NCBI RefSeq assembly: GCF_018409545.1 | Contig: NZ_AP024563.1 | Span: forward strand, 62,001 to 126,000 | DNA: 64,000 bases | Source of the DNA: Allochromatium tepidum | GTDB lineage: Bacteria > Pseudomonadota > Gammaproteobacteria > Chromatiales > Chromatiaceae | Direction of reading: 5' to 3' | Part shown: in pieces, positions 34,328-57,264 of the stretch | Position numbering within the stretch: position 1 is the stretch's first letter | Layout: every line of letters begins with the position of its first letter | Notes under the pieces: model-generated | What the model saw: only the letters and a program-made list of their open reading frames with translations | Database searches by the model: none | What the model was told of the DNA's origin: nothing | Translations under genes and position numbers: made by a program

Positions 34328-34408
34328 TCCCGATACAACGTAAACAGTGAGCCGCCGGGCGCGTTCTTCCAGCGCACTGGTGTCTCCCGACTGGTGGAGG
34401 CATGGCCA

Positions 34409-36286
34409 ATGCAACGCTATCTGATCCGCTTCACGATGCTCTTGGTCCTGATCCTGGGATGGTCGCTCAGGCTCTCAACGGCCGATGCCGTGACACTCGT
34501 CGCCGATCGGCCTTCGCCGCAACCCGCCGGCACCACCATCACCTTCACCATCGACGCGCAAGGGACGACGAACGCGCTCTACCGCCTGAGCGCCGGTCCG
34601 GCACAGGGGCCGGGACAGCCCGAGATCGTCTACGACGGCTCGCGCGACGACACCCTGGAATGGACGCGGATCGATCCGGGTGTCTATCGCATCGTGGCGA
34701 CGGTCCTGAACGCCGACACCGGCGAGGAACAGGTCGTCGAGCAACTCTTCAACATCGAGCCGGCCGTGCCGCCGGATACCTCCTGGGCGATGGTGCTGCC
34801 GACCTCAAACCCGCTGGTGGCGCTCTATGTCGCGCCGCCCTGTCCGCCGCCGGCACGGATGCACGTGCGCTTCGAGGCTCCGGGTGACGGACGGGTCCAG
34901 GCGACCGGCCCGAAACGCTGTGAACCGGGCGTTCCGCTGCATTTCCTGGTGGCCGGGATGCGCGAACGGACCACCTACCGGATGCGGCACGAGATCCTCG
35001 GGCCGTTCGATGAGGTCATGGTCGGCTCGGACGCGATCGATTTCACCACCGGCGAGGCGCTGATCGCGATCTCGGAGCATCATCCCGTGTCGCTCGATAG
35101 CGGACAGGACGCGACGACCGAACCCCTGATCTGGAGCTCGACCCTCATCGGCAATCCGACGCTCGGACTCGGTCCCTACATCCACGCGACCGATCTCGAG
35201 GGGCGACTGGTTTGGTATCTGGATACACCCACATGGGCGATTCGACCGAGCCACGGCGGTACGCTCTGGGTCGTCCGGCCCGACCCGATCAGCGGCGTCC
35301 GCGACACCGTGCCGGCCAAGGTCGATCTGCTGGGGCGGGTCGTCAGGCAGACCACGGTCGAGGCGCTCAACCGCCAGCTCGCGCGTCTCGGATACGCGGA
35401 TCGCATCAACGACATCCATCACGACGTGCGCGACCTGCCGGATGGCCGGATCGCCTTCATCTCGACGGTCGAGCGTCTGGTCACGGACGTGCAGGGACCG
35501 GGGACGGTCTCGGTGCTCGGCGACATGATCCTCGTCACCGATCAGAATTTCGTGATCCAGTGGGTCTGGAACGGTTGGGATCATCTGGATCCGACCCGGC
35601 CGGCGACGCTCGGCGAGGTCTGCGCGATCGGTGACGCCGGCTGTCCGCCCTTTCATCTGGCCGAGCAGTCAAACGACTGGATGCATTCCAACAGTCTGGC
35701 CTATACGCCGGACGGCAATCTGATTCTCTCGGTCAGACATCAGGACTGGATCGTCAAGGTCGAGTATGCCGACGGCGCCGGGGATGGGCATGTGCTGTGG
35801 CGGCTCGGACCCGAAGGGGATTTCGCTCTGGTCGGCGGCACGGCGGATGACTGGTTCTCGCACACCCATGACGCGCAGTTCATCAGCGAGAACCGGATTC
35901 TGGTCTACGACAACAGCAATCTGCGTTGCGCGGGAGAGACCCCGCCGCCCGACTGCCGGAGTCGGGGTCAGGTGTGGGAGATCGACGAGCGGACGATGAC
36001 GGCCGAGCTGGTCTTCGATCAGGATCTCGGCGACTTCGCCTTCGCGGTCGGTTCGGCGCAGCGACTGCTGGACGGCGGCTACTGGTTCAATTCCGGAATG
36101 CTCGGCAGCTTCGCCGAACCGCGCACGACCTTTCTGGACGTCGGACCGGATGGGGCGACGCGACGCCGGATCGAACTCGATATGTTCCACTACCGCTCCT
36201 ATCGTCTGCGCGACCTCTACTCGGTTCCGCCGTCCTGGGACACGCCGGCCTGGAACAGCCATCCGCGCCGGCTGTCCACCTGGTAG
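34409..36286 (+). CDS. Aryl-sulfate sulfotransferase (AssT) family protein
   Basis: 625 residues; start at ATG 34409 with GGAGG nine bases upstream. A signal peptide of about 25-30 residues leads to an Ig-like N-terminal domain and then a beta-propeller arylsulfotransferase domain. The propeller carries INDIHHDVRDLPDGRIAF, NDWMHSNSLAYTPDGNLILS, SVRHQDWIVKVEY and WFSHTHDAQFISENRILVYDNSN; the histidines in HHD, WMHSN, RHQ and SHTHD correspond in order to active-site histidines known from bacterial PAPS-independent ASST, where one His is transiently sulfurylated. Such enzymes move sulfate between phenols in the periplasm. No DsbA/DsbB-like partner, often encoded beside assT, is adjacent. Cysteines are present in several pairs. 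Confidence 0.85.
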   Translation: MQRYLIRFTMLLVLILGWSLRLSTADAVTLVADRPSPQPAGTTITFTIDAQGTTNALYRLSAGPAQGPGQPEIVYDGSRDDTLEWTRIDPGVYRIVATVLNADTGEEQVVEQLFNIEPAVPPDTSWAMVLPTSNPLVALYVAPPCPPPARMHVRFEAPGDGRVQATGPKRCEPGVPLHFLVAGMRERTTYRMRHEILGPFDEVMVGSDAIDFTTGEALIAISEHHPVSLDSGQDATTEPLIWSSTLIGNPTLGLGPYIHATDLEGRLVWYLDTPTWAIRPSHGGTLWVVRPDPISGVRDTVPAKVDLLGRVVRQTTVEALNRQLARLGYADRINDIHHDVRDLPDGRIAFISTVERLVTDVQGPGTVSVLGDMILVTDQNFVIQWVWNGWDHLDPTRPATLGEVCAIGDAGCPPFHLAEQSNDWMHSNSLAYTPDGNLILSVRHQDWIVKVEYADGAGDGHVLWRLGPEGDFALVGGTADDWFSHTHDAQFISENRILVYDNSNLRCAGETPPPDCRSRGQVWEIDERTMTAELVFDQDLGDFAFAVGSAQRLLDGGYWFNSGMLGSFAEPRTTFLDVGPDGATRRRIELDMFHYRSYRLRDLYSVPPSWDTPAWNSHPRRLSTW

Positions 36287-36370: not shown

Positions 36371-36406
36371 TCCTGTTGATCCGAAGCGAGAGCGAGTCTG
36401 CCGTCA

Positions 36407-36785
36407 ACTACCCCGCCCTGAAGGGCGGAGCTTGTGAGAGCAAGCTGGGTTGACCAGCCTCAGCCCGCCTGACCGGGACGGTCGAAAGGGGCTCCGTGTG
36501 CCACAGGTCGTCAAGACTCACCGGCGGATGCTTCCTCAGTCCGCCGCTCTGAAAGGTCGGGATCATGCAGGCGCAAGGTAAAGCGCCGAAGGTTTTGATC
36601 GCCGCGCCGGCGGGAGCCGGTTGCACACATTGGCGAGGGGAGCGACCACGCCGCGAGGTGTCGTCCGTCACCAGGCCCTTACGGGCAGAGCCTCACGGCC
36701 CGGCAGGTGGAAAGCCTGCACCTGTTTCCGGCGGCTGCACGGTCGTAGCCGCTCTCCCTCCCCGCCCTGAAGGACGGGGTTTCTC
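36407..36785. mobile_element. Hairpin-bounded non-coding element, IS200/IS605-like remnant or MITE
   Basis: The left end has a CCGCCCT-GA-AGGGCGG hairpin (36413-36428) immediately followed by AGCTTG-TGAGAG-CAAGCT (36429-36446). The right end has a near-identical hairpin CCCCGCCCT-GA-AGGACGGGG (36760-36779). Subterminal hairpins of this 'CCCTGAAGGG' kind are typical of IS200/IS605-family ends. The ~330 bases between contain no transposase or TnpB sequence and only chance open frames. It is best explained as a deletion derivative or non-autonomous element, perhaps retaining the right-end non-coding RNA region of a TnpB element. Ends are placed by eye. Confidence 0.5.
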
Positions 36786-36797
36786 GCGGAGGAACTG

Positions 36798-38429
36798 ATG
36801 AGTATGTTCTGTTTCCAGTGCGAAGAAGCGTCCAAGGGTTTTGGCTGCACCACCAACAAGGGTGTCTGCGGCAAGCATTCCAAGACCGCCCATTTGCAGG
36901 ATCTGTTGGTCTATCTGCTCAAGGGACTGGCGGTCGTCGCCGAAGAAGCCGCCAGACAGGGCACGCCAGATCCGGGCGTGGGGCGCTTCGTCACCGAAGC
37001 GCTCTTCATGACCATCACCAATTCCAACTTCGACGACGCGCGGCTCGAAGATCGGATCCGGGCGATCATCGCCCGCCGCGACGCGCTCAAGGCCGCCATC
37101 GGCTATTCCGGCGAACTGGAGGCCGTTGACTGGACCGGCACGCCCGATCACTACGACACCAAGGGCCTGGCCGTCGGCGTGCTGTCGCAGGCCAACGAGG
37201 ACGTGCGCTCACTGCGCGAACTGTTGGTCTACGGTCTCAAGGGCATGGCGGCCTATACCGATCATGCCGCCGTGCTCGGTTTCGAGAAGCCCGAGATCTA
37301 TGACTTCATGGTCTCGGCCCTGGCCGCCTCGCTGACCGAGTCCGACATCCAGACCCTGATCGGCTGGGTGCTCAAGTGCGGCGAGTTCGGCGTCACCGCC
37401 ATGGCGTTGCTCGACGAGGCCAATACCGCCAGCTACGGCAACCCCGAGATCACCAAGGTCAATCTCGGTGTGCGCAACAACCCCGGCATCCTCATCTCGG
37501 GTCACGATCTCAAGGACATGGAGGAACTGCTCAAGCAGACCGAGGGCACGGGCATCGACGTCTACACCCACAGCGAGATGCTGCCGGCGCACTACTATCC
37601 GGCGTTCAAGAAATACGCACACTTCGTCGGCAACTACGGCGGCGCTTGGTGGGAGCAGGACAAGGAGTTCGCCTCCTTCAACGGCCCGATCCTGATGACC
37701 ACCAACTGCATCACGCCGGTCAAGGACAGCTATCGCGACCGGATCTTCACCACCGGACAAGCCGGCTGGCCGGGCGCCATGCACATCGCCGACCGTCCCG
37801 AGGGCGGGGTCAAGGACTTCTCGCCGCTGATCGAGCGCGCCAAGACCTGTGCGCCCCCGACCGAGTTGGAGCAAGGCGAGATCGTCGGCGGCTTCGCCCA
37901 TGCGCAGGTGATGGCCCTGGCCGACAAGGTGATCGACGCCGTCAAATCCGGCGCCATCAAGCGCTTCGTCGTCATGGGCGGCTGCGATGGGCGTCACAAG
38001 CAGCGCTCCTATTACACCGATGTCGCCAGGGCGCTGCCCAAGGAGGCGGTGATCCTCACCGCCGGCTGCGCCAAGTATCGCTACAACAAGCTCGATCTCG
38101 GCGACATCGGCGGCATCCCGCGTCTGCTCGACGCCGGGCAGTGCAACGACTCCTATTCACTGGCCTATATCGCCTTGAAGCTCAAGGAGGTCTTCGGCCT
38201 GGACGACATCAACGAACTGCCGATCTCCTACGACATCGCCTGGTACGAACAGAAGGCGATCATCGTCCTGCTGGCGCTGCTCTCTCTGGGCGTGAAGCAC
38301 ATCCGGCTCGGCCCGACCCTGCCGGCCTTCCTGTCGCCGAATGTGGCCAAGGTGCTGATCGAGAACTTCGACATCAAGCCGATCGGCGAGGTGGAAGAGG
38401 ACGTGCGGGCGATGATGGCGGCAGCCTGA
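36798..38429 (+). CDS. hcp: Hydroxylamine reductase / hybrid cluster protein Hcp
   Basis: 543 residues. The N-terminal cluster cysteines are C5, C8, C17 and C24 (CFQC...[11 protein letters not shown]), and the hybrid-cluster ligands appear in the C-terminal half: [55 protein letters not shown] and GQCNDSYS. Hcp is now regarded mainly as a nitric-oxide reductase active in anaerobic nitrosative stress. A strong GGAGG ribosome-binding site lies six bases before ATG 36798, directly after the hairpin element. No hcr reductase gene is adjacent, so the electron donor is unknown. Confidence 0.97.
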
Positions 38430-38445
38430 AATCGGTTGGAACCGA

Positions 38446-38471
38446 GCGAGTGGATCACAACATCCACTCGC
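38446..38471 (+). terminator. Hairpin terminator after hcp
   Basis: GCGAGTGGAT and ATCCACTCGC form a perfect 10-bp stem around a 6-base loop, 16 bases after the hcp stop. No T run follows, so termination may be weak. It separates hcp from the three-gene island beginning about 100 bases further on. Confidence 0.55.
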
Positions 38472-38571
38472 GACCGTCGCTGTCTCCGACGCCATCCTGT
38501 TGCGAGTCCTTTGCGTTATCATCCTGCATTCCTTTGGTTGAGTGTCGAGCGGATGAAAAGGAATGCACAGC

Positions 38572-38988
38572 ATGCAGGCAGATTTTCTGGATGCCCATGA
38601 GCGTCACTGGGATGATGCCGAGTTCTTGTTTCTGGCTCAGCGCTGGGCGAATGCCGACCATCTGTACGGTATGGCGACCGAATGTGGTTTGAAGCAGCTC
38701 ATGCTCGCCTTTGGGATGCCTTACGACATGAACAAGGATCGCCCCAGCCAAAAAGAGGATCGGCAGCACGCCACAGGGGTTTGGACGCGCTTCGAGACCT
38801 ATCGCGACGGTCATCACCTGGGGGCCGGTTATGTCCTGCCCAACTCCAACCCATTCCGCGATTGGGACGTGTCCCAACGCTATGCCCATCGATCCGGCTT
38901 CGATCAGGCACGGGCACTCTCTCACCAAGCCGGTGCACGACAAGTCCGTGATTTGGTCCGGAAGGCTCAACGAGAGGGACTGCTGTGA
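38572..38988 (+). CDS. HEPN-like domain protein (island gene 1)
   Basis: 138 residues from ATG 38572, chosen because AAGGA lies nine bases upstream (ATG 38563 would add three residues). The first 40 residues, with DDAEFLFLAQRWANADHLYGMATECGLKQLML, have the two-helix pattern of HEPN proteins (…A..hYGhA.ECaLKahh…). The canonical RNase motif R-x4-6-H is not convincing, so catalytic activity is uncertain. The middle is rich in His and aromatic residues (RQHATGVWTRFETYRDGHH). It overlaps the next gene by four bases (GTGA), so it is co-translated with the ATPases. In defence and toxin-antitoxin modules HEPN proteins are frequently RNA-cleaving or regulatory subunits; the role here is inference. Confidence 0.65.
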   Translation: MQADFLDAHERHWDDAEFLFLAQRWANADHLYGMATECGLKQLMLAFGMPYDMNKDRPSQKEDRQHATGVWTRFETYRDGHHLGAGYVLPNSNPFRDWDVSQRYAHRSGFDQARALSHQAGARQVRDLVRKAQREGLL

Positions 38989-40337
38989 CCACCTTCGATG
39001 GGATCCTGCCGATCGTGGCCGAGGTGCTGGATGGGCACCGCGAAGCGATGACCGAACTCGACTGGCTCCTGATCAATCGCGACCTCAATGGGCGGGTTCG
39101 CCTGATCGTGCCCGAGACCGTCGAAGCCGACCCGGTCATGCGTGATCATGTGCGTGTCGTGGCCGAGCAACTCGCCGAGCGGCTCGGGTGCCATGCCTAT
39201 CCAGCGGATCGGGCCATCCTCTATGAGATCAGCCGGGAGCCGGCCTGTCAGGATGCGACCTGCTATCCATTGGATGGCTTCGACAGGGTCTGGATCGTGG
39301 ATCGTCTGGCCACCGAGGGACGCTGGGAGCGGATCGCCCCTGAAACCGAGGGTGCGCGGCGCATCGTGTTTTTCTCCATCAAGGGTGGTGTCGGTCGCTC
39401 CACCGCGTTGGCTGCCACCGCCTGGCACCTGGCCCAAGCAGGCAAGCGTGTGCTGGTGCTCGATCTCGACCTGGAGTCACCTGGATTGTCTTCCAGCCTG
39501 CTGCCTCCCGAGCGTCAACCCAAATACGGCATTACCGACTGGCTGGTAGAGGATCTGGTCGACAACACCGATGGGATGCTCGACGGTTTGATTGCCATGA
39601 GCAATCTGTCCCACGACGGTGAAATCTATGTCGTTCCTGCCCATGGCGCGGATCCGGGCGAATACATCGCCAAGCTCGGTCGGGTCTGGATGCCCAAAGT
39701 GAAGTCGGACGGTTCGCGTGAGGACTGGTCCGCGCGCTTGCAGCGGTTGTTGACGGACTTGGAGCAGCGCCTCCAACCGGATGTCGTTCTCATCGACTCG
39801 CGCGCCGGTATCGACGAGGTGGCCTCGACCTGTGTGACGGATCTGGGAGCGAACCTAGTGTTGCTGTTCGCGCTGGAAGGCGATCAGACCTGGAACGGTT
39901 ATCGTCTGTTGTTCGACTACTGGCGGCAAACGCGCGTGGCGGAAGCCATGCGTGAGCGCTTGCAAATCGTCGCTGCCCTGGTGCCTGAACTCGAACGTGT
40001 GGCTTACCTTTCAGGTCTGCGCGAACACGCCTACGGGATCTTCGTCTATTCGCTATACGATGAGATCGCACCACCTTCGACCGAAGCCATTGGGCCAACA
40101 CCTGATGGTTCGCAGAGATGGCGTGTCGGTGAGCTGGTGGAGGGCTGGAGTTTCGATGAGGCCGACACTGGGGCGCCTCATCATCCCTGGGTGGTGTACT
40201 GGCATCGTAGCTTTGCCGGACTCCGTTCGCTGCAAGGTCGACTTGCGGTCATCGATCGCCAAGAAGTGAACTCGATCTTCGGTTCATTACTCGATGGAGT
40301 CGGTACCGTCCTTGGGCTGGAGTCTATCCATGACTGA
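38985..40337 (+). CDS. KGGVGR-motif ParA/MinD-like ATPase (island gene 2)
   Basis: 450 residues, GTG start overlapping gene 1. Residues 1-130 form a domain I do not recognise. From 127 the protein is a deviant-Walker P-loop ATPase: IKGGVGRST at 132-140, where the signature first lysine (133) remains but the second, normally Lys, is Arg138; LVLDLDLESPGLSS is the Walker A' acidic strand, VVLIDSRAGIDEV the Walker B strand, and LVLLFALEGDQTW follows. This is the 'KGGVGR-variant' branch of the ParA/MinD/SIMIBI class, seen in accessory islands. It may act as an ATP-dependent dimerisation switch or sensor. Composition is less GC-rich than the surrounding housekeeping genes, suggesting horizontal transfer. 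Overlaps gene 3 by eight bases. Confidence 0.75.
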   Translation: MTTFDGILPIVAEVLDGHREAMTELDWLLINRDLNGRVRLIVPETVEADPVMRDHVRVVAEQLAERLGCHAYPADRAILYEISREPACQDATCYPLDGFDRVWIVDRLATEGRWERIAPETEGARRIVFFSIKGGVGRSTALAATAWHLAQAGKRVLVLDLDLESPGLSSSLLPPERQPKYGITDWLVEDLVDNTDGMLDGLIAMSNLSHDGEIYVVPAHGADPGEYIAKLGRVWMPKVKSDGSREDWSARLQRLLTDLEQRLQPDVVLIDSRAGIDEVASTCVTDLGANLVLLFALEGDQTWNGYRLLFDYWRQTRVAEAMRERLQIVAALVPELERVAYLSGLREHAYGIFVYSLYDEIAPPSTEAIGPTPDGSQRWRVGELVEGWSFDEADTGAPHHPWVVYWHRSFAGLRSLQGRLAVIDRQEVNSIFGSLLDGVGTVLGLESIHD

Positions 40338-41733
40338 AGCGCAAGCCTTGCGTGAAGCCATTTTGGCCGCGCCGCTAGAGACCAGCAATTTCGGTGAAAC
40401 CCCACGGCCGGGAACGCTCTACTTGCCGCCATCCCACCTCAAGGCTCTGCGGCTCGACGCGCATGTCGTGGTGGGGAGTCGGGGCGTCGGCAAGTCCTTT
40501 TGGACGGCGGCGCTGCAATCCGCTGAGTTGCGCGGACTCTTGGGAACCGCTGCGTCAGAGCTGGCGGGGATCGAGGTTCACGCCGGCTTCGCCAATCGGG
40601 AAGCCATCGCCGACTATCCGAATACCGATGTGTTTTCGGTCTTTCTCGATCAGGGAGGCGACCCCTACGACCTGTGGCGTGCAGTGGTCTTGCGTTGGGT
40701 GGCAGAGCGTGCAGGGCAAAGCATTCCCAGCGAAAGCTGGGCCGCCACGACCGCCTGGCTGAGGTCCGATCCCGAGGCCGCCGCACGTCTGATGCAGCAT
40801 CCGCGTGACTGGCGCGGGCTGATCCTGTTCGATGCCCTGGATCGCACCAGCAATGTCTGGCAGCGTATGGACGATATCGTGCGTGGTTTGCTGCGTGCTG
40901 TGCTCTGGCTCAAAACCTTCCCAGGCCTCCATGCCAAGGTGTTCTTGCGCGAGGATCAAGCAGAGCGCACCGTCTTCAACTTTCCGGATGCCTCCAAGCT
41001 TACGGCTACCAAGGCCGAGCTGACCTGGGCCAGACACGATCTGCACGGACTGCTGTGGCAACGACTGGTCAACGCACCGGATAGGCATGGTCAAAGGCTA
41101 CGCGGAATTTGCCGAGCGCGCGAAGATTCCGGTATCTGGTTGCTGCCGGATGACATGAAACGCGAAACCGATACGCAGCGATCAGCGTTTGGGCGGCTCG
41201 CCGGTCCCTGGATGGGGCGAGACAGGCGGCGAGGCGTACCTTATACCTGGTCGGTCAGCCACTTGGCGGACGGTCGCGGTCAGACTTCGCCGCGTTCGTT
41301 TCTAGCGGCGATTCATCAAGCGGCGGAAGATTCCGGCGAACGCTATCCGCAACACGACTATGCGCTGCATTACGAAAGTCTCAAGCGGGGCATCCAGAAG
41401 GCTTCAGAGATCCGCGTGACCGAGGTCGCCGAAGATTACCCCTGGGTTCCGGAGGTGCTTTCGGAGTTGAAGGGCATGAATGTTCCCTGTGTCTATGAAG
41501 AGATGCTGGCGCGCTGGTGTGAACGCTTTCCTGGTGGACCTCAGGATATTCACCTGGACCGTCTGCCCGCGCAGCATGCGACCCGTGGCTGGGAAGGCAT
41601 TCGCGAGGATCTACAGCGTCTCGGTTTGATCGAGACCAAAAAGGATGGGCGTATCGACATGCCGGATCTCTACCGGGTCGGGTTTGGCCTGGGCCGCAAG
41701 GGAGGTGTCAAACCGCGTAACCGAGGCTCATAG
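40330..41733 (+). CDS. P-loop ATPase with possible winged-helix C-terminus (island gene 3)
   Basis: 467 residues. The ATG at 40330 overlaps the gene 2 stop region (bases 40330-40337). Walker A GSRGVGKS is at residues 49-56; a hydrophobic strand ending in LILFDALDRTS near residue 170 looks like Walker B with a following Asp-Arg. The middle contains FLREDQAERTVFNFPD and ATKAELTWARHDLHGLLWQRL, which resembles the sensor/lid region of STAND-like or ORC/Cdc6-like ATPases. The last 80 residues (GWEGIREDLQRLGLIETKKDGRIDMPDLYRVGFGLGRKGG) look like a winged helix with a basic tail, possibly nucleic-acid binding. I know no named family member; the same neighbourhood with genes 1 and 2 should be searched. 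Confidence 0.7.
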   Translation: MTEAQALREAILAAPLETSNFGETPRPGTLYLPPSHLKALRLDAHVVVGSRGVGKSFWTAALQSAELRGLLGTAASELAGIEVHAGFANREAIADYPNTDVFSVFLDQGGDPYDLWRAVVLRWVAERAGQSIPSESWAATTAWLRSDPEAAARLMQHPRDWRGLILFDALDRTSNVWQRMDDIVRGLLRAVLWLKTFPGLHAKVFLREDQAERTVFNFPDASKLTATKAELTWARHDLHGLLWQRLVNAPDRHGQRLRGICRAREDSGIWLLPDDMKRETDTQRSAFGRLAGPWMGRDRRRGVPYTWSVSHLADGRGQTSPRSFLAAIHQAAEDSGERYPQHDYALHYESLKRGIQKASEIRVTEVAEDYPWVPEVLSELKGMNVPCVYEEMLARWCERFPGGPQDIHLDRLPAQHATRGWEGIREDLQRLGLIETKKDGRIDMPDLYRVGFGLGRKGGVKPRNRGS

Positions 41734-41759: not shown

Positions 41760-41807
41760 AAGGCCGCGTCCGCCGGATGGTCATGAACCATCGGCGGACG
41801 CGGCCTT
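41760..41807. terminator. Bidirectional terminator
   Basis: Arms 41760-41780 and 41788-41807 pair over about 20 bases with one bulged C and a 7-base loop. The stem begins AAGGCCGCG and ends CGCGGCCTT followed by ATTT, so it can work in both directions. It lies between the island's last gene and the convergent RRM gene. Confidence 0.85.
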
Positions 41808-41844
41808 ATTTCAGTCACAGCCCGAAAGGAGCTGGACCCGGCTG

Positions 41845-42126
41845 TTACCAGCGCGAGCCGCCGCCGCTACGTGCCGGACGGTCGGAACGCGGCTTGGCCT
41901 GGTTGACGCGCAGCGGACGCCCCTTGAGCGGGGTCTCGTTCAGACCCTTGATGGCCGCGTCGGCCTCGGAATTGCTGGGCATTTCGACGAACGCGAAACC
42001 CTTGGAATCACCGGTGAACTTATCGGTGATCAGGTTCGCGCTCTCGACATTGCCGTAGGCACCGAAAGCCTCGCGCAGATCGTCCTGGGTCACGCTATAG
42101 GCCAGGTTGCCAACATAAATATTCAT
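41845..42126 (-). CDS. RRM RNA-binding protein (cold-inducible Rbp type)
   Basis: 93 residues starting MNIYVGNLAY. RNP2 is IYVGNL at residues 3-8, RNP1 is KGFAFVEM near 44-51, and the C-terminal tail is short, basic and glycine/serine-rich (RPARSGGGSRW). These single-RRM proteins resemble cyanobacterial and proteobacterial Rbp proteins induced in the cold. It lies 130 bases downstream of rhlE on the same strand; a DEAD-box helicase plus RRM protein pair suits an RNA-remodelling cold-response role, which is inference. Confidence 0.92.
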   Translation of the reverse strand: MNIYVGNLAYSVTQDDLREAFGAYGNVESANLITDKFTGDSKGFAFVEMPSNSEADAAIKGLNETPLKGRPLRVNQAKPRSDRPARSGGGSRW

Positions 42127-42255
42127 CAGTCTCGGTCTCTTGGGGAACTTGCGCATCGATTAGAAGGAACTCCGGTGCCGGCCGATGCGCCCGCCGGCTG
42201 GAGTGGCAGCGGTTCGGCCTGAGCCGTTCCGCAAAACTGGGATCTCGAACCTACA

Positions 42256-48958: not shown

Positions 48959-51900
48959 TCACACTCCTGCAAAGAGCCGGTCGAGCGACTCGATCAGCAC
49001 GCGCGACGGTCGGTCCATGAACAGCCCCTGGCTCGCCGACCGGCCGCCGCGCAGAAAGACATAGATCGCCCCGCCGAGATGGCGGTCGTAGTCGTAGTCC
49101 GGCAGTCGCGCCTTGAGCTGACGGTGCAGGGCGAGCAGATAGAGGACGTATTGCAGATCGTAGCGCCGCTCGGCGATGGCCGCGCGCATGGCCTCCGGGG
49201 TGTAGGCGTTGTCGTCCGGGCCGAGCCGGTTGGATTTCCAGTCGAGCACGTAATAACGTCCCTGATGCTCGAACACCAGATCGATAAAGCCCTTGATCAT
49301 CCCGTTCAGGTAGGTCGTGTTGAGTTGGGGGCGTTCGAGACCGGCGAGCGTGTGCTGAGTGACGAGTTGATCGAGTCGGCGCAGATCGACGGCGCGGCCC
49401 TCGATCCAGAACTCCAGTTCGACCTGATAGCGGCTGGGATCGAGGTCGGCGAATCGCAGTCGTGGAACCGTGCCGTCGGGCAGGGCGAGTGCGTCGAGAT
49501 GCCAGGTGCGATCGAGCAGTGTGGTCAGCCAGGCGTCGAGCGGTTCGACCCAGTCGCCCAGTCGGCGCGGTGTGCAGCGCTGTTCGAGCATCCGGCGCCG
49601 CGCATCGGCTCTGGCCAGCGCGGCGGCGAAGCCGTGTCGGCCCGCGTCGGGGTGATCGGTTCGCTTCGGTGCGCGCTGAGTCGCCGCCCATTCCAGCAGC
49701 CCATGCAGGAAGGTGCCATAGCGTCCGCCGCGCGGGAAGGCGTGCAAGGTGCCTGGGGGAGACTGGATCTCCTGGGATTCGCCGGCGTCCGACTCCTCGC
49801 GTGCGGTCTCATCGCTCGCCGTTTCGACCGAATCGACGGGTGACACGGGCAGGGAGGTCGCGGATGCCTCGGCCTCGATTCCATCGCTCTCGGCCAACTG
49901 CGCGCCTCGGCTCAGCGCCGAGTAACTGCTGATCCACCAGGCACGCGGGCGCCAGTCGGGCGCGGGGCGGGCGTCTTCGAGTTCGACCTCGGTCTCGGCC
50001 TGATAGGGCGCAGGATCGGCGGCGGGCGGGTCGATCAGGGTCACGCAGGACAGTCGGCGCAGTCGGGCGGCCAGATCGCCGTTGCCGGTTGCATGGGCCT
50101 CGTTCCCCGAACCCTCGGTTTCGGGCTGATCGTCCCCGGACCACGCGACCGTCCGGCCGTCGAGTCCGAGCAGATAACCGAGCGCCGAGTGTTCGAGATC
50201 CGAGATCGCCCCCAGCCCCAGCCAGTTGGCGTGACGCGCGCGCGTCAGTCCCACGTAGAGTTTGCGCAGATCCTCGCCCAGACGCTCGCGGTCGGCCTGG
50301 GCGACGAGCGCGTCGTCTCCGCCCAGATGCACCTGGAGCCGATGCGCGGCGTCATGGGTCTTGAGCGGTCGATCCTTGGACTGGGTGCGCCGGCAGTCGG
50401 CGATGAAGGGCAGGAACACCAGCGGATATTCGAGTCCCTTGGATTTGTGGATGGTGACGACCCGCACCAGACGCGCATCGCTTTCGAGTCGCAGCTGGCG
50501 CGCCTCGGCTGTCTCGCCGGTGGCCGCATCACTGTCGGCGATCGCTTCTTCGAGAAAACGCACCAGGGCCTGTTCACCGTCGAGTTCCTCGCTCGCGCGC
50601 TGGAGCAGCTCGCCCAGATGCAGTAGATCCGTCATGGCCCGCTCGCCGTCCGTGGTTCCGAGCAGACGGGCGGCGATCCGGAACTCGCCGATCAGCCGGT
50701 AGAGCATGGGCAGGAATCCCTGACGACGCCAGCGTCCGTTGAGGTCGCGCAGCCGCTCGCCCTGGGTCTCCCAATGGAGTTCGTCGCGATTGAGCCGGTC
50801 CAGATCCGTCAAGCCCTGGCCGAGCAGGCGGGTGGCCAAGGCCTGACGCATCAGCCGGTCGTCGAAGGGGTCGGCGATGGCGCGCAGCAGCACCGCCAGG
50901 TCGCGTGCGATTTGGGTGTCGAAGACGTTGCCGCGCTCGGAGAGGTAGACGCTGGCCACGTCGAGCCGGCGCAGCTCGGTGCGGATGGCATCGGCCTCGC
51001 CGCGATTGTTGACCAGAACCGCCAGATCGCTGGGTTCGAGCGGGCGTTCGCCGTCCTGACCCACAGGCAGCAGGGCGCGTCCCTCCTGTCCGAGCCGCAG
51101 CAGCTCGGCGATGGTGCGGGCGGCGGCCTCGGCGGTGCGCGCGCGATAGGCGTCCTTGCTCAGCCGGCCGTTGGGGCCGGGTGGGATGACCCAGCCCTGG
51201 AGCGGCGGACAGGGCCGGCCGTCGATGGTCAGGGTGCGCTCGGCCTGATCGCGCGGGCGCGCCGGATGGAAGGGAACCGGGTTGCCCTGGCCGTTCGGTT
51301 CGCGAAACAGGAAGGCGCCGTGCGTGGCGGTGCGCTCGCCATGCTCGAAGAGGGCGTTGACCGCCGTGATCAGGCCGGTCGAGGAGCGATAGTTGACGTC
51401 GAGCGTGTAGTGACGGCCCTGGGTGGCGGCGCGCGCGATCAGATAGGTGTGGATGTCGGCGCCGCGGAAGGCATAGATCGCCTGCTTGGGGTCGCCGATC
51501 ATGAAGAAGCCGGTGGCGGCGTGATTGGCGTGAATGTCGTAGATGGACGAGAAGATGCGGTACTGGAGCGGGTCGGTGTCCTGGAATTCGTCGACCAGCG
51601 CGACCGGGAACTGTCGGCGGATGGCGGCGGCGAGCCGTTCGCGGCCCTCGCCCTGGAGTGCCTGATCGAGCCGGATCAGCAGGTCGTTCTGGGTCAGGAT
51701 CGCGCTTTGGCGCTTCTCGCGCTCGACGTGGCTCTTGAGCCAGTGGACGGCGTGGGTCAGCAGATCCTCGGTGGGATCGGGCAGGGTGGTGAGTGTTTCA
51801 TGCAGGTCGGCCAGCGCGCGGCAGGCCGGATCGTCGACCGGGGCCTTGGCGGGATCGTTCCAGATCTCGCCGATGGCCAGTGAGGACATCCGTTGCCAGG

Positions 51901-52795
51901 ACTGGCCGCCGAAGATGTCGGGTTCGGTCTGATCCGGCGTCTCCAGCCAGACCCGCAAGCCCTCCAGCACCTTGGCGCGGTGGTTTTTGTTGAGCGAGTT
52001 TTGCTTGAAGGCCTTGTTCTTGACCGCCTGCTCGAAGAGTCGCTCCAGGGCGGCGATATGATCCTGCGTGCGCCAGTCGGTCTTGAGCGTGGCGATCGTG
52101 TGTCGGCGGGTCTCCAGACAGCGTCCGACGATCACGTCCGGCGGGTCGGCGATCGGCGGCAGATACTCGGCCAGGGACAGCAGACCTCGGACCGCCTTGG
52201 CCAGATCCGATGGCTGCGACCATTGCTCCAGCACGGGTTCCAGACGCTCGGCGGGAAGTCCGAGCAGGAAGGTGCGCCAGTAGTCCTCGGCGGCGTGTTG
52301 CAGACGTTCGGCGTCGTCGTTTTCCAGCGTCTGTTCGAAGGCGTTGGCGCTGTCGAAGGCGTGTTCGCGCAGCATCCGGTAGCACCAGGCATGGATGGTG
52401 GAGATGGCCGCCTCGTCCATCCATTCGGCGGCCAGTTCCAGGCGGCGGGCGGAGTGCGCTCGATTGTCAGGGGCTATCTGGTCGCGCAGTTCGAGCAACA
52501 GGGGGTCGTCCGGACCGGGCGACAGCGGATCACGAAAGATCGCCGCCGCCTCCACCAGCCGGCGCCGGATGCGGTCGCGCAGCTCGTCGGTGGCGGCATT
52601 GGTGAAGGTCACGACCAGGATCTCGGGCGGCATGAGCGGGCGCGGGAAGGCCGCTTCGCCGCCATGTCCCAGGATCAGGCGCAGATAGAGCATGGCCAGG
52701 GTGAAGGTCTTGCCGGTGCCGGCGCTGGCCTCGATCAGCCGTGAGCCGTGCAGGGGGACTTCGAGCGGGTTCAGTCGCTGGATGGTGGTGTTCAT
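48959..52795 (-). CDS. recB: Exodeoxyribonuclease V subunit beta, RecB
   Basis: 1,278 residues from ATG 52795 (MNTTIQRLNPLEVPL), the normal RecB N-terminus; the frame continues open upstream through the integrase region but is not RecB there. Motifs: IEASAGTGKTFTLAMLY (I), VVTFTNAATDELRDRIRR (Ia), ISTIHAWCYRML, VALVDEFQDTDPLQYRIF (II), GDPKQAIYAFRGADI (III), VTIHKSKGLEYPLVFLPF (V), YVGLTRARHANWLGLG (VI), and the C-terminal nuclease with GFIDLVFEHQGRYYVLDWKSN. RecB normally lies between recC and recD; here the gene upstream is an integron integrase that stops five bases before recB, so recB translation must start from sequence inside or just after the integrase gene. Confidence 0.96.
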   Translation of the reverse strand: MNTTIQRLNPLEVPLHGSRLIEASAGTGKTFTLAMLYLRLILGHGGEAAFPRPLMPPEILVVTFTNAATDELRDRIRRRLVEAAAIFRDPLSPGPDDPLLLELRDQIAPDNRAHSARRLELAAEWMDEAAISTIHAWCYRMLREHAFDSANAFEQTLENDDAERLQHAAEDYWRTFLLGLPAERLEPVLEQWSQPSDLAKAVRGLLSLAEYLPPIADPPDVIVGRCLETRRHTIATLKTDWRTQDHIAALERLFEQAVKNKAFKQNSLNKNHRAKVLEGLRVWLETPDQTEPDIFGGQSWQRMSSLAIGEIWNDPAKAPVDDPACRALADLHETLTTLPDPTEDLLTHAVHWLKSHVEREKRQSAILTQNDLLIRLDQALQGEGRERLAAAIRRQFPVALVDEFQDTDPLQYRIFSSIYDIHANHAATGFFMIGDPKQAIYAFRGADIHTYLIARAATQGRHYTLDVNYRSSTGLITAVNALFEHGERTATHGAFLFREPNGQGNPVPFHPARPRDQAERTLTIDGRPCPPLQGWVIPPGPNGRLSKDAYRARTAEAAARTIAELLRLGQEGRALLPVGQDGERPLEPSDLAVLVNNRGEADAIRTELRRLDVASVYLSERGNVFDTQIARDLAVLLRAIADPFDDRLMRQALATRLLGQGLTDLDRLNRDELHWETQGERLRDLNGRWRRQGFLPMLYRLIGEFRIAARLLGTTDGERAMTDLLHLGELLQRASEELDGEQALVRFLEEAIADSDAATGETAEARQLRLESDARLVRVVTIHKSKGLEYPLVFLPFIADCRRTQSKDRPLKTHDAAHRLQVHLGGDDALVAQADRERLGEDLRKLYVGLTRARHANWLGLGAISDLEHSALGYLLGLDGRTVAWSGDDQPETEGSGNEAHATGNGDLAARLRRLSCVTLIDPPAADPAPYQAETEVELEDARPAPDWRPRAWWISSYSALSRGAQLAESDGIEAEASATSLPVSPVDSVETASDETAREESDAGESQEIQSPPGTLHAFPRGGRYGTFLHGLLEWAATQRAPKRTDHPDAGRHGFAAALARADARRRMLEQRCTPRRLGDWVEPLDAWLTTLLDRTWHLDALALPDGTVPRLRFADLDPSRYQVELEFWIEGRAVDLRRLDQLVTQHTLAGLERPQLNTTYLNGMIKGFIDLVFEHQGRYYVLDWKSNRLGPDDNAYTPEAMRAAIAERRYDLQYVLYLLALHRQLKARLPDYDYDRHLGGAIYVFLRGGRSASQGLFMDRPSRVLIESLDRLFAGV

Positions 52796-52800
52796 TGGAA

Positions 52801-53826
52801 TTAGAGATCGGGCGGACTCTTGGCGTCTTTCTGCGTCACGCTCGGTATCGTGTGCGTGTAGATCATGGTGGTGCGAACATCGCTGTGGCCGAGGAGTTCC
52901 TGGATCGTGCGGATATCGTAGTTGGCCTGGAGCAGATGACTCGCATAACTGTGACGCAGTGTGTGGGCGCCGGCTCGCTTGCGAAGCGCGATCTGGCGCA
53001 CGGCCTGTTTGATCGCTTTCTGCACATGGGATTCGTGCAGGTGGAAGCGGCGGAATTCGACGGTGTCGGCGATCTCGGTCAAGGTCTTGGCCGGGAACAG
53101 CCATTGCCGGACCGGTTCCTTGGCGGCGCGTGTGTATTTGGCGTCCGGGGCGTGTGGTAGGAAGGTTCCGGCGTAGCCGTTGGCCAAATCCTGTTTGCGG
53201 ATGTGCGCGACCTGTTCCAGTTGGAGTTCGATTTCGGTGCGCAACGATTGTGGGAGGGGCAGGGTTCGATCTTTTTGGCCTTTGCCGTCGTGGACCTTCA
53301 GGATCATCATCTCCAGGTTGATGTCCTGTACGCGCAGTTGCAGGCATTCGAAGAGCCGCAGGCCGCAGCCGTACAGGAGTTTGGCGACCAGATCGTAGGG
53401 GTAGCTCAGGGCGCCGATGAGCCGGTCGACCTCCCGGCGCGATAGGACGACTGGAATGTAGGGCTTGCGCTTGGCGCGCACCACGCTTTCGACCTGGCCG
53501 AATTCCTTCCCCAGGACATGACGAAACAGGAACAGCAGGGCATTGAAGGCTTGGTTCCGGCTGGAGGCCGAGACCTGTTTTTCGACGGCCAGGAAGCTCA
53601 GGAAGGCTTTGACGTCTTCGGTCGTCAGTGAGTTTGGCGGCCGATTTTGGACATAGGCGTGCAGTTGGCGGGTCCGGCCGCGATAGGATTTGAGTGTTTT
53701 GGGTGAGTAATGTCGGACCTTGATCGCGGTTTCCAGTTGGTCGTAGACGTCTCGCCAGTGCAGGTCGGTGGTGGGTGTTGTCGGCGTCGATGAGCCGTAG
53801 GGAGCCGGTTGGGTACTTTGCACCAT
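52801..53826 (-). CDS. Integron integrase (IntI-type tyrosine recombinase)
   Basis: 341 residues, the usual IntI length. A core-binding domain (HYSPKTLKSYRGRTRQLHAYV) precedes a catalytic domain with Arg in LLYGCGLRLFECLQLRV, the Lys in KVHDGKGQKDR, HTLRHSYASHLL, LLGHSDVRTT and the tyrosine in MIYTH. Between boxes it has the extra IntI-specific helix region (RRFHLHESHVQKAIKQAVRQIA), which separates integron integrases from XerC/D. It is transcribed away from the cassettes, as in integrons. An upstream frame (53910-54128) resembles a detached N-terminal segment. The stop lies five bases before recB. Confidence 0.85.
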   Translation of the reverse strand: MVQSTQPAPYGSSTPTTPTTDLHWRDVYDQLETAIKVRHYSPKTLKSYRGRTRQLHAYVQNRPPNSLTTEDVKAFLSFLAVEKQVSASSRNQAFNALLFLFRHVLGKEFGQVESVVRAKRKPYIPVVLSRREVDRLIGALSYPYDLVAKLLYGCGLRLFECLQLRVQDINLEMMILKVHDGKGQKDRTLPLPQSLRTEIELQLEQVAHIRKQDLANGYAGTFLPHAPDAKYTRAAKEPVRQWLFPAKTLTEIADTVEFRRFHLHESHVQKAIKQAVRQIALRKRAGAHTLRHSYASHLLQANYDIRTIQELLGHSDVRTTMIYTHTIPSVTQKDAKSPPDL

Positions 53827-53909
53827 CGTTGGCGGTGTCTTGTTGTCGGCCGTGGCTCGCTTCTCGCAGGTGGCCTGGGGTGATTTCGAGGGGCGTCGTT
53901 GAGTGGGGG

Positions 53910-54128
53910 CTACGGTGGTTGTTTGAACGGTCGGGGGGCTTGTTCCCGGAGCTTGGCGTCGAAGGCGGTGAGGCTTGAATGATGGGTGGAGTCTTGTTGG
54001 TACTTCCGGAAAAAGTCCGGATAGAACCGCAGCCGGCGGCGAAAATATGGCCGATGATTCTCCGCGATTCCGGCGGCGACCATGGCGGAATCGAAGCGGG
54101 ACGCTAGGGCTGGAGGGGTCTCGCGCAT
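53910..54128 (-). pseudogene. Detached N-terminal segment of the integrase
   Basis: A 72-codon frame, MRETPPALASRFDSAM...ENHRPYFRRRLRFYPDFFRKYQQD...FDAKLREQAPRPF, has the look of the N-terminal extension carried by some long chromosomal integron integrases: a helical SAM-like core-binding piece. It ends at a stop 83 bases before the integrase ATG and is in a different frame. Either the ancestral integrase was longer and lost this part by frameshift, or this is an independent small protein of unknown role. Confidence 0.45.
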
Positions 54129-54139
54129 AGGCAGAACTC

Positions 54140-54176
54140 TGCGGGATAACCTATGTCCTGTGAATGTTATCCCGCA
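54140..54176. repeat. Perfect palindrome in the integron attI region
   Basis: TGCGGGATAAC (54140-54150) and GTTATCCCGCA (54166-54176) are exact inverted repeats of 11 bases around a 15-base spacer. The right arm begins with GTTA, similar to a recombination half-site. It lies upstream of the integrase N-terminal frame and 53 bases before the cassette junction, so it could be an integrase-binding site, or an operator for the divergent transcripts. Confidence 0.65.
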
Positions 54177-54235
54177 AAATCCCCAGTGTCCACAGCTATA
54201 TTGTCTGGAGGACGCTGCGTGTGGTAGGGTTAGCC
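54177..54235 (+). other. Presumptive attI and cassette junction
   Basis: The core-like GTTAGCC at 54229-54235 matches the attC core GTTAGCT at 54876-54882 in its first six bases. Insertion between G and TT at 54229/54230 would define the start of the first cassette. The site lies on the correct (upstream) side of the integrase. No second simple site could be defined with confidence. Confidence 0.5.
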
Positions 54236-54876
54236 GGAAACATTGTCATACAATCACTGGTTGGAGCCACAAAGGCGCAACATCAAACTCCCTGACGGTC
54301 AGAAACGCGGGCTGGCCGTCGGGGCTTAACCAGTCCCGCAAATAGGAGACACATCATGGCACTAATTAAATGGGAACCATTGCGTGAGATTGAGGACATG
54401 TTCGACCGTTACACGAAGGCGATGGGCTGGCCTATGAGTCGAGGGCAGGAACTCATTAACACAGGCGACTGGACTCCCCGAGTTGACATCAGTGAGACTG
54501 ACAACGAATTTATGATCAAGGCGGAAATCCCCGAGGTCAATAAGGAGGATGTCAAAGTCAGTGTGGACAACGGGGTTCTTACCATCCAAGGGGAAAGGAA
54601 ACAGGAGAAGGAAGAGAAAGGGAAAAAATTCCATCGAGTCGAGCGATATTATGGAAGTTTTGTTCGTAGCTTTACGTTGCCCGACAATATCGACGCAACC
54701 AAGATTAAGGCGTCGTTCAAGGATGGCATGCTGAACCTCCAGATTCCAAAGACTGGGGAGGCAAGGCCAAAAGCCATTGAGGTGAAAGTTGAGTAAATAA
54801 AGCTCCAACAAAATGCTCCACCGGACGCGCCAAAAGCGGCGCTTCGCTTGCTTTTGGCGCGCCGGTGAGCTTTACG
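54230..54876 (+). mobile_element. Integron gene cassette 1 (Hsp20)
   Basis: About 647 bases from the attI junction to the attC cleavage point, with one gene in the cassette orientation. The composition (more A/T, lysine- and isoleucine-rich coding) contrasts with the GC-rich flanks, as expected for a captured cassette. A 126-base leader precedes the gene, so it may carry its own promoter. Confidence 0.65.
54356..54796 (+). CDS. Small heat-shock protein, Hsp20/alpha-crystallin
   Basis: 146 residues with a complete alpha-crystallin domain: WTPRVDISETDNEFMIKAEIPEV, VDNGVLTIQGERKQEKEEKG, FHRVERYYGSFVRSFTLPDNID and FKDGMLNLQIPK, ending with the I-x-V tail IEVKVE. N-terminal MALIKWEPLREIEDMFDR is the usual class A start. 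AGGAG lies ten bases before the ATG. It is an ATP-independent holdase. Base composition is clearly lower in GC than neighbouring genes. The stop codon directly abuts the attC site, the normal position in a cassette. Confidence 0.95.
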   Translation: MALIKWEPLREIEDMFDRYTKAMGWPMSRGQELINTGDWTPRVDISETDNEFMIKAEIPEVNKEDVKVSVDNGVLTIQGERKQEKEEKGKKFHRVERYYGSFVRSFTLPDNIDATKIKASFKDGMLNLQIPKTGEARPKAIEVKVE

Positions 54877-54882
54877 TTAGCT
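54800..54882 (+). other. attC recombination site of cassette 1
   Basis: An imperfect inverted repeat starts AAAGCTCCAAC and ends ACGTTAGCTTT, giving R''/R' boxes (…CCAAC / GTTAGC). Inner arms ATGCTCcACCGGaCGCGCC and GGCGCGCCGGTGAGCTTTAC pair with one or two unpaired bases in the left arm (the extra C in GCTCCACC and the A in CGGACG), the extrahelical-base feature of attC folding, and a further stem AAAAGC/GCTTTT closes a terminal loop. Total about 80 bases, in the range of attC sites. Confidence 0.75.
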
Positions 54883-54910
54883 TTACCAAGCAGATTTCCG
54901 GCACAATCAC

Positions 54911-55240
54911 ATGAACCTTCGCGCAGCCATCGAACAACTGGACAAATTCTGCCAAGAGCGTGGCTGGAACGGCCGGGAATTAAAGACGGGAATAAACTAT
55001 CGCGTCGGCGGAAAAACAGCAGTATCAATCTACTCCTCTGGCACAGACAAACCAGGCACTATTGAGGTTGCGTTTGAAGTCGACACAATCAGTAAAATCG
55101 CCAACGTATCAACATCAACCGTAAACGCCTGGATACGTCAACTTCAAGAGAACATCGGCAGCTACGCAAGGCCAAAGACTCAGTATCAATATCCGAGAGT
55201 CGCACTCGCCAGCAATCAGCAACTACAAGAATTCTGGTAG
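54911..55240 (+). CDS. Hypothetical cassette protein with possible helix-turn-helix
   Basis: 109 residues, beginning 34 bases after the attC cleavage point, as a second cassette gene would. The N-terminus (LRAAIEQLDKFCQERGWNGRELKTGINYRVGGKT) is unlike anything I know; residues near 63-80 (ISKIANVSTSTVNAWIRQL) look like a helix-turn-helix. The stop codon TAG lies exactly at the edge of the IS66 insertion, so the C-terminus and attC may have been lost to that insertion. GC content is again low. Confidence 0.6.
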   Translation: MNLRAAIEQLDKFCQERGWNGRELKTGINYRVGGKTAVSIYSSGTDKPGTIEVAFEVDTISKIANVSTSTVNAWIRQLQENIGSYARPKTQYQYPRVALASNQQLQEFW

Positions 55241-56900
55241 CGGTTTATCCCCCCCGCTCATCAGCCCGCATCTCGTGCTCAAAACGCCGTGAAGGTTAAG
55301 CCGCGAGCGGCAAGGCTGGGGCAGGCAATCCTTGGCGACGCTGACGCAAGGCGTCGGTCAGATAAGGCCAAGGGGAGAGACCGCGCCGGCGGCAGGTGTC
55401 GATGACGCCGGCCAAGGCGCAGAAGGCGCGCGAGCCCTGCTCGGTGCGCGGGCCTTGACTGACCCGACGCAGAATCACCCAGGGGCGCAAGGCGCGCTCG
55501 GCCTCGTTGTTGGTCAGCGGCAGGTGCGGATGCTCCAGCACGACCCGGAAGCCGTCCCAGTCGTTGCGCAACTCGCGCGCAAGCACCTGGGCCTTGTCGG
55601 GATAGGGGCCGGCGGCCACGCGCACACAGCACTGCCGGAGGGCCTGGAGCCTCTGACTGTAAGTCTGTCGCAGGCCGTGGGGGCCGGGGGCGGCGCGCGC
55701 GGCGTAGACGGCCTGCATCAGCGTCTCGAAGGTGCTCGGAAGCTCCCGGCCAAAGGCTTGGGTCGGGGTGTGGAGGCGCTCGGCCGGGCCGCGGGCCTTG
55801 CGCAGGATGGGCGCCCAACAGCGTAGCCGGTGTCCGTAGGCGCGGTAGACCGAGTAACCATCGCTCATGATCCACGGGCTGGGGGTGGGACCGAGGATGG
55901 AGTGCAACAGCTCCCGGGTGCGCCGACCGATCACATAGAGGAGGGTGTTGGCGGTCACGAACGCCCACAACCACAACGCCTGATCGTGCTGCGGCCGGCC
56001 GGTTTCATCCACAGGCACCGGTTCGGCGTCGCTCAACGCCGCGCGCAACGCCTCCTCGACCACCGGTTCCAGCGCGCGCCCGAGTTCATGGCGGCACTGA
56101 CTGATGAGCGCCGTCGACAGCGACAGCCCGAACCGGTCGGCGAGAAACTCTTGAATCCGTCGGTGTGAGCCGCCCAGACGCAACGACAGCGCCACGATAA
56201 AGCTCGACAAACGTGGTCCGACCAGATGCCGTTCGGTCAGCTCCACCGTCCAGTCCGCCTCGGCGAGCGCGCGTCCCGGTTCGGCGCGCGTGCGATGCCC
56301 ACACCCACAGCGCACCTCGAAATAGGTGTGCTTGGTCTGGGTGACGACTACACCGGCGTTCCCCGACTCGGGACGCTCCAGTTCCAGTTCATAGCGCCCG
56401 GTATAGGCCACCGCCTCCAGACCCTCCAACGCCGCCCCGCAACCGGCGCAATGACTCGGCGCGTGGGACTGTTCCTGATCGATCGGCAACACCCGGCGAC
56501 GGCTCACCCCCGGATGACCGGGCCGGCGACCCGGGCGACCTTTCGGCTTCACCCCCGCCTTTGAATCACCCCCCACGCTCGCTTCCCGTTTGGGCCTCTC
56601 CGATTCTGGGGCCGACTCCGACACCCTATCCGTCGCGCTCCCCGCGCTCGCGTCATCCTCCTCCTCCACTCCCAGCGCCAGACTCTCTCCGCCTCGTTCC
56701 CACGGCGCCCGGCTGCTCGGCGGACGCGAACTGTTCTCCGGACTCCGGTTCAGCCGCTCGCGCGCCTCCTTCAGATCCGACAGCAACCGCTTCGATAACG
56801 CGCGCAACACCTCGCGCGGCAGTCCGTCAAGACGCGCCTCGTCGAGTTGGCGTAGATCGTTATCCTTCAGGTACATCGTGGCCGGTCGCTCTCAAACCGC
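55241..56900 (-). mobile_element. IS66-family insertion (single-transposase type)
   Basis: The element contains one IS66-type transposase gene without the usual tnpA and tnpB accessory frames. A seven-base GCGGTTT (55240-55246) is matched in inverted orientation by AAACCGC at 56894-56900, which may mark the ends; I could not find a clear 8-base target duplication, so limits are provisional. Insertion appears to have cut the second integron cassette. Confidence 0.6.
55296..56876 (-). CDS. IS66 family transposase (TnpC-like)
   Basis: 526 residues. The N-terminus is a helical region with [11 protein letters not shown], typical of IS66, then a basic/proline-rich linker ([12 protein letters not shown]). 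A zinc-finger-like CAGCGAAL and [12 protein letters not shown] come next, and then the DDE transposase core: VPVDETGRP region, [13 protein letters not shown], and the glutamate in [18 protein letters not shown] with the closing [12 protein letters not shown]. The frame is intact, so the element may still be active. It is transcribed toward the integron. Confidence 0.9.
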
Positions 56901-56984
56901 AAACCGGTGCAATGGCGCTGTTGCAGCAAATCTCGACATCCTCGTCACGCTCCGATCGGCACGAAACGTCGGGCAGCAAAGGGT

Positions 56985-57264
56985 GGGGGGTAAACGGTTA
57001 CTGATCACCCAGATCCGCCAGAATATGCACAACAAACTCATGCCCTTGATGGATAAGCTGTTATTGCGCAAGCGCGCCATCATCGAAAGCATCAACGATC
57101 AGCTCAAGAACATCCAACAGATTGAGCATACCCGCCATCGCAGTGTCATCAATGCCCTGGTCAATGTCCTCGCCGCCTTGGTCGCGTACACCTATCAACC
57201 CTCCAAGCCGTCCCTCAACCTCACCAAAAAGCAGCTTATCCTATTGAATTCTCAAGATTCTTAA
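56985..57264 (+). mobile_element. IS982 transposase C-terminal stub
   Basis: The last ~85 codons, [33 protein letters not shown]… described by blocks [31 protein letters not shown] and [13 protein letters not shown], are the C-terminus of an IS982 family transposase. The N-terminal two thirds are missing, apparently lost when the IS66 element or a deletion came in. AT-rich relative to the surroundings. Confidence 0.75.

Follow-up and report, generated by a model that had tools for sequence, protein, structure and literature searches.

The genes at positions 38572–41733 of the Allochromatium tepidum stretch analysed here (the window, meaning the whole 64,000 nucleotides) form a compact trio, A, B and C, that is the already catalogued defence candidate PDC-M28, and not the nameless system for which an earlier note on this DNA took it. 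We consider it very probable that the trio is a defence module. The fuller reading, that the window locus is a solitary copy of PDC-M28 and most likely an abortive-infection-type guard module, we hold with about even confidence. Codes beginning with L and G denote loci and genomes in our survey. The three genes are as follows.

38572..38988, plus strand: gene A (PDC-M28A), 138 aa, predicted HEPN fold.
38985..40337, plus strand: gene B (PDC-M28B), 450 aa, MinD/ParA-like ATPase with a KGGVGR variant Walker A motif and an N-terminal domain of about 130 residues.
40330..41733, plus strand: gene C (PDC-M28C), 467 aa, STAND/ORC-Cdc6-like P-loop ATPase with a C-terminal winged-helix region.

All three proteins match their PADLOC-DB v2.0.0 models at near full length (PDC-M28A, E 1.8e-57; PDC-M28B, E 4.6e-182; PDC-M28C, E 4.3e-204), and the three matches fall within one operon. 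B also passes the NCBIfam model NF047398, 'KGGVGR-motif variant AAA ATPase' (201.8 bits, cut-off 90), and C scores 61.7 bits against NF047389 (Sll1717 family P-loop ATPase), under the cut-off of 75. The PDC candidates reportedly come from a preprint by Payne and others (doi 10.1101/2024.01.29.577857). Excerpts of two papers describe PDCs as 'guilt-by-embedding' candidates, mostly untested (PMC10855318, PMC12988326). A full-text search of main texts, with preprints outside its scope, found no paper containing PDC-M28 or KGGVGR. The window trio has all three proteins in common with PDC-M28, likewise in a single operon, but is solitary, unlike those relatives that are embedded in known defence systems.

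Coordinates, frames and overlaps of the genes are as the earlier note gave them, with 4 bases shared by A and B and 8 bases by B and C; the start codon of B is GTG. We place the start of A at ATG 38572, where the list of open reading frames (ORFs) has 38563; the fourth residue of the longer frame is the first residue in most homologues.

A is predicted to have the HEPN helical fold, in line with the HEPN-like protein suspected earlier. The eight best structural matches by VIA to its AlphaFold2 model (mean predicted local distance difference test score (pLDDT) 89.8) are HEPN-type chains (Z 9.7–12.3), of which five are titled HEPN, and Csm6 and AbiV come next. The best chains include 1ufb, which we take to be HEPN, and, among the eight, 2jpu is the same target as 2q00. 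The latter is listed as HEPN-T in the extracts of PMC3710099. Two relatives of A are annotated as HEPN in public records. There is no Pfam match to A, searching solved structures by sequence yielded no credible match for A or C, and no MAE_18760-type chain is named in the VIA list for A, which is not a membership test.

Six residues are invariant in a 46-sequence alignment of A (R11, E37, K41, H66, R103 and Y104, each 46/46). A classical HEPN RNase was considered for A and rejected, the RX4-6H motif being present at R103 in only 3 of the 46 sequences and at R24 in 27. According to the extracts of PMC3710099, AF0298 and AbiV lack the motif histidine, keep the arginine and have another conserved histidine upstream, and Ex3[KR] is common to many HEPN families. 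A displays this AF0298/AbiV-type pattern in every sequence, with Ex3K (E37 and K41), H66 and R103 each at 46/46. It is thus a predicted HEPN protein with an alternative His/Arg/Ex3K site and a putative RNase or toxin role. The alignments behind these and the following counts leave out near-copies (L035–L037, L108 and L127), sequences of wrong length or broken (A of L032, L033, L105 and L113; B of L105, L106, L109 and L126; C of L033) and, for each gene, any locus without a tblastn match to it.

B is a MinD/ParA-like variant ATPase. Its KGGVGRS motif occupies residues 133–139 and follows an unfamiliar N-terminal domain of about 130 residues, as described in the earlier note. The P-loop lysine is replaced by arginine (Arg138) in 56/56 sequences, all of which carry KGGxGR[ST], so that B departs from the canonical deviant Walker A motif KGGxGK[ST] of MinD/ParA (SIMIBI) ATPases. 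K133, D160, D162, D271 and R273 are also invariant.

C, the second P-loop ATPase, has a Walker A lysine (K55) and a Walker B aspartate (D168) that are each conserved in 60/60 sequences, and its AlphaFold2 model ends in the winged-helix-like region that had been read from the sequence. By VIA this model matches CED-4 (Z 10.6), the archaeal ATPase 2qen (Z 10.4) and plant NLR, archaeal STAND-type and ORC/Cdc6 structures (Z 8–10.6), and chains from BrxC-containing entries rank third to seventh among the PDB chains in Foldseek (E 0.005–0.024). The C-terminal repeat sensor of STAND/NLR proteins is missing in window C, which ends at residue 467, past the winged helix. Taken together, the model suggests that C resembles STAND/ORC-Cdc6 ATPases and is active-looking.

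The trio behaves as a unit. The earlier note had allowed that its homologues might not occur together elsewhere; tblastn finds A, B and C in 48 of 62 other loci counted after near-copies were dropped, in the same order and on one strand in 48/48, and adjacent genes mostly overlap or lie a few bases apart. In one of these 48 loci (L105), A and B have shrunk to a single 220-residue frame. A profile search recovers A in 7 of 13 further loci re-examined, one match being weak (L118, E 2.4e-5). Seven loci remain without a complete trio: a contig end cuts C in L032 and L126, where B of L126 is also short; L106, at a contig end, begins inside B, and only the end of B is present in L109; C stands alone in L089 and L090; and L096 has a fused C without A or B.

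Because most loci were collected by searching with B or C, a sample of the class gives the fairest estimate of abundance. There, C is found in 8 of 369 genomes (the window's own included) at nine places, with B adjacent at all nine, and B in nine genomes at ten places, the tenth being a weak partial match. C is present in 20 of 398 genomes of a phylum sample, and 14 control genomes gave no match. None of 5,426 E. coli genomes matched the Enterobacter trio in a DNA-level search. For phage records the search was made with B only and gave no match among 50,697. Among viral contigs the trio is present on two near-identical contigs; alignment-based scans revealed no further trio, the scan with A adding one short contig with an A relative. 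The trio also occurs amid lambdoid-type prophage genes (names read from translations) on a contig from IMG/VR that has a near-copy. The gene directly after this prophage-borne trio (L034, 7587–8468, plus strand) matches PD-(D/E)XK and NucC nuclease profiles.

Part of the relatives sit inside defence operons, which lends good support to the earlier guess at a defence-type module. In 7 of 58 loci, tblastn shows a DUF1156 methylase on one side of the trio and a PLD helicase on the other (for two loci PADLOC profiles show it too), the helicase being partial and near a contig end in L022 and L119. In the two read further (G193 and G127), DUF499 and DUF3780 genes share the cluster with the trio, the methylase and the helicase. 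We take this cluster to be the type-2 BREX-related system described in PMC12839542. Three of the 14 plasmid regions read, on plasmids of Candidatus Thiodictyon syntrophicum, Streptomyces sp. NBC_01334 and Sphaerotilus sulfidivorans, place the trio within a BREX type-2 operon, and in one locus it adjoins type I restriction genes. Of 30 hand-picked large flanking genes, nearly all from loci that look partnerless, seven match a PADLOC model at E 1e-15. Next to the window trio, none of the neighbouring ORFs is a core gene of BREX type 2 or BREX-related type 2, and the PLD helicase is not found in the window genome at E 1e-150. This genome carries, elsewhere, an Hma-type (DUF499) system in which HEC-02 candidate genes are embedded (L164, 8147–19092, minus strand; G000, C1:2243146–2254091).

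A quick tree of 60 C proteins groups the window copy with those embedded in BREX-related systems. Embedded copies of this type make up all five of its nearest rows, and the window copy and these rows belong to a seven-row set (Shimodaira–Hasegawa-like approximate likelihood ratio test (SH-aLRT) 98) whose only other member is L128, where the contig ends just upstream and no helicase is seen downstream. The window copy therefore probably derives, as far as the tree can tell, from a BREX-related context. At minimum the tree requires four changes for BREX-related embedding and three for the three BREX-2 rows, and these multiple changes point to several transfers of the trio between hosts as its most likely history. 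Fusions also occur. B and C form one protein in one locus, and in five loci, which make up one clade (support 99), C is followed in frame by calcineurin-like metallophosphatase and NACHT domains (L093, 9266–14638; L094, 5478–10787, minus strand; L095, 10156–14142; L096, 5942–10219, minus strand; L097, 7515–12590).

Comparison with congeners supports horizontal acquisition of the three genes as a module. Gene names in the neighbourhood (hcp, DEAD-box, hemB and RRM) are assigned by reading the sequence. The upstream hcp gene is present in 8 of the 8 genomes of the genus that were searched and the downstream DEAD-box gene in 5 of 8, and the insertion site is comparable in three congeners. The cassette is absent from this site in G001 and G004, where 157 bases separate the conserved end of hcp from the equivalent of window position 41829; the window has about 3.4 kb. 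The earlier note had the trio bounded by a hairpin on each side, and these two elements are present.

38446..38471, plus strand: left hairpin, most likely the terminator of the upstream gene 36798–38429 (hcp by reading).
41760..41807, minus strand: right hairpin, most likely the terminator of the minus-strand gene 41845–42156 (RRM-type by reading).

Both hairpins have counterparts at the empty sites of G001 and G004, so they are most likely part of the flanking genes, with the cassette lying between two terminators, rather than boundaries of a putative single transcript of the cassette. Target-site duplication was looked for and rejected: the longest shared end repeat is 8 bp, within chance, and is not seen in the empty-site sequence. 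The third congener, G002, has a different gene in the same gap, between hcp and RRM (L161, 3028–4941); by eye it is related to window 34394–36286, an arylsulfotransferase-like gene by reading that lies upstream of hcp.

The lower G+C content (GC) that had been pointed out earlier is confirmed, at 60.7% in the cassette against 66.4% in the remaining window, and GC at third codon positions is low as well (A 64%, B 70% and C 67%, against 88% in hcp, 83% in the DEAD-box gene and 87% in hemB). The low GC of the cassette is not unique within the window, since among 1217 sliding windows as long as the cassette 60 are equally low, 54 of them at about 51.6–57.7 kb. That stretch (51600–57700, minimum 51.8%) has the strongest positive GC skew of the window, and the skew then turns negative at about 56 kb.

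We found no mechanism proposed for PDC-M28, and the present analysis gives each part a role. C would be the sensor and switch, assembling on invading or replicating DNA or, alternatively, responding when a partner restriction system is blocked. B, with arginine for lysine in its P-loop, would sit between C and A as a slow latch that depends on ATP and times the response, and A would be the output, cleaving or binding RNA and so stopping the infected cell. The nature of the trigger, the order in which the parts act, cleavage of RNA by A and protection from phage are all inferred, and we put this mechanism, as written, at somewhat below even chances. The residues of interest are H66, R103 and E37 of A, K133 and R138 of B, and K55 and D168 of C.

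The overall logic may be likened to that of PrrC, a HEPN RNase under NTPase control that guards the type I restriction-modification (RM) system PrrI as a second line of defence, as set out in the extracts of PMC3710099. Like PrrC/PrrI, the trio combines a HEPN output with NTPase control and, for part of its relatives, a place in restriction-type operons. It differs in being three proteins, in having a STAND/ORC-like and not an ABC-like ATPase in C, in a B that has no counterpart, and in an A that does not conserve RX4-6H.

C also invites comparison with CED-4, plant NLRs and bacterial NACHT proteins, to which its model aligns over about 300 residues at Z of about 10, and five loci fuse C to metallophosphatase–NACHT; window C differs from STAND/NLR proteins in having neither a repeat sensor nor a fused effector. 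A more tentative extension, to which we give less credence than to the mechanism itself, is that the trio is a portable split-NLR, in which a STAND switch (C), a MinD-type latch with an arginine P-loop (B) and a HEPN effector with the alternative His/Arg/Ex3K site (A) plug repeatedly into methylase-based defence operons, serve there as a second-line guard, and can leave them again to work alone, as here. If B gates C and A, MinD-type switches would be linked with STAND immunity; to our knowledge, a MinD/ParA-type switch gating a STAND–HEPN immune output would be the first case. What is added to the catalogue entry is the reading of folds and motifs, together with a history of repeated transplantation of the trio, as an insert, into BREX-2 and BREX-related operons. 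The solitary window copy, which groups with these inserts, offers a natural test of whether the module needs a host system.

Several observations weigh against a guard module of this kind. Neither nuclease activity nor phage protection is reported in the literature found. For A, the Z of 12 falls in the tool's warning range for helical bundles, Foldseek ranks HEPN chains first at E of about 0.5 with none reaching E 0.001, and the classical RX4-6H is rare at R103; for C, the model is moderately confident (mean pLDDT 74.4). The window copy has no known defence genes alongside, and its neighbours, ORFs of hcp, RRM and DEAD-box type, look like housekeeping genes. More broadly, tblastn turned up none of the genes sought from BREX-2, BREX-related type 2 or type I RM at 47 of 58 loci, in a search whose context queries (BREX-2, DUF1156/PLD-helicase, DarG, Ppl and one type I RM set) could miss other systems. 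Outside the 11 embedded loci, PADLOC-type neighbours number about 8–13 of 82 genes against 1–3 of 82 in a control (p 0.008 for 13 versus 3, or 0.066 for 9 versus 3), an enrichment that is only suggestive, with counts that are rough because the tallies are by family, show 25 of 79 and 25 of 31 families, and let one protein match several families. The set consisted of the nearest genes of at least 200 aa (104 listed, 82 used), leaving out 21 genes from the 11 embedded loci and, for its length, one L102 gene without a PADLOC match; the control comprised 82 genes, out of 119 located on 20 stretches in four genomes. Finally, embedding could mean that the trio is an accessory of its host systems and not a separate effector.

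This last possibility, which we consider unlikely though well short of negligible, would make the trio an accessory machine of methylase-based systems (BREX-2, BREX-related type 2 and type I RM) for DNA loading or site recognition, with C a BrxC-like DNA-bound ATPase, B positioning C, and A a non-catalytic RNA- or protein-binding adaptor. It would account for the placement of the trio between methylase and helicase, for the structural proximity of C to ORC/Cdc6 and the high rank of BrxC-entry chains in the Foldseek list, and for an A without RX4-6H. By contrast, most loci, the window included, have no partner, BREX-2 or BREX-related type-2 genes being present in only 10 of 58, and embedding arose repeatedly on the C tree, with at least four BREX-related and three BREX-2 changes. 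The host systems, moreover, do not need the trio: the PLD helicase is present in 8 of 369 genomes of the class, and C accompanies it in only two of these eight, in both directly upstream of the helicase. In the other six, no C is found anywhere at E 1e-20 and none is seen in the 1.5-kb flanks of the helicase, although one contig (G265) starts 155 bases upstream. With the helicase and C searches taken to cover the same 369-genome draw, the chance of at least two shared genomes is 0.011. Several relatives of the trio lie within the type-2 BREX and BREX-related (DUF499) operons of PMC12839542, whose BrxC/DUF499 ATPases have the STAND/ORC-Cdc6 fold class in common with C; the trio is an insert in these operons and not a core gene. 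In the main text of that paper, MinD and SIMIBI have no mentions, although B may appear there under another name ('para' gives 18 matches).

The guard-module reading also fits better than an addiction module resembling a toxin–antitoxin (TA) system, in which B would silence a HEPN toxin A, C would be a further regulator and the main function would be plasmid maintenance. We regard this as improbable. A dyad of HEPN (MAE_18760) and ParA/Soj is a predicted TA system in the extracts of PMC3710099 and, like the trio, sets a HEPN gene beside a ParA-like ATPase gene; the trio adds C, a variant Walker A motif in B and an AF0298/AbiV-like HEPN pattern in A. The trio is also found on plasmids, some of them conjugative, and an integrase gene lies directly upstream of A, on either strand, in 4 of the 14 plasmid regions, which would suit such a module. 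A third large ATPase would be unusual for a TA system, however, and B stands without C at only one of its ten class-sample places, the weak partial match. In the closest relatives, similarity to the window copy is no lower for C than for A and B, and an addiction module would not be expected to insert repeatedly into restriction-type operons.

A plasmid or chromosome partition locus with B as its ParA-type component has next to no credence: B is MinD/ParA-like, but its P-loop lysine is arginine in 56/56, chromosomes, a prophage and BREX operons have all received the trio as a unit, and no ParB is annotated beside it in the 14 annotated plasmid regions (from an incomplete gene table), the annotated ParB of B. 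glumae lying about 11 kb away. The possibility raised earlier that the homologues consistently belong to a partition locus is thus not borne out in these regions, and both plasmid partition and housekeeping readings are set aside on grounds of conservation and context.

Two local elements remain to be described, the first of them just upstream of the cassette.

38525..38567, plus strand: 11-bp perfect inverted repeat spanning the Shine–Dalgarno-like AAGGA of gene A.

This repeat offers a weak hint of local control of the coupled cassette. A hairpin masking the Shine–Dalgarno sequence before A was considered on account of the perfect 11-bp arms and set aside, the folding z-score being an unremarkable 0.81; as the relatives scanned have no comparable hairpin covering the A start either, we treat it as local and unproven. 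The second element is a full-length HEARO (IscB-associated omega) RNA directly upstream of hcp (window 36403–36646, plus strand, 100 bits), one of a family with 24 matches in the genome, 18 of them above the Rfam cut-off.

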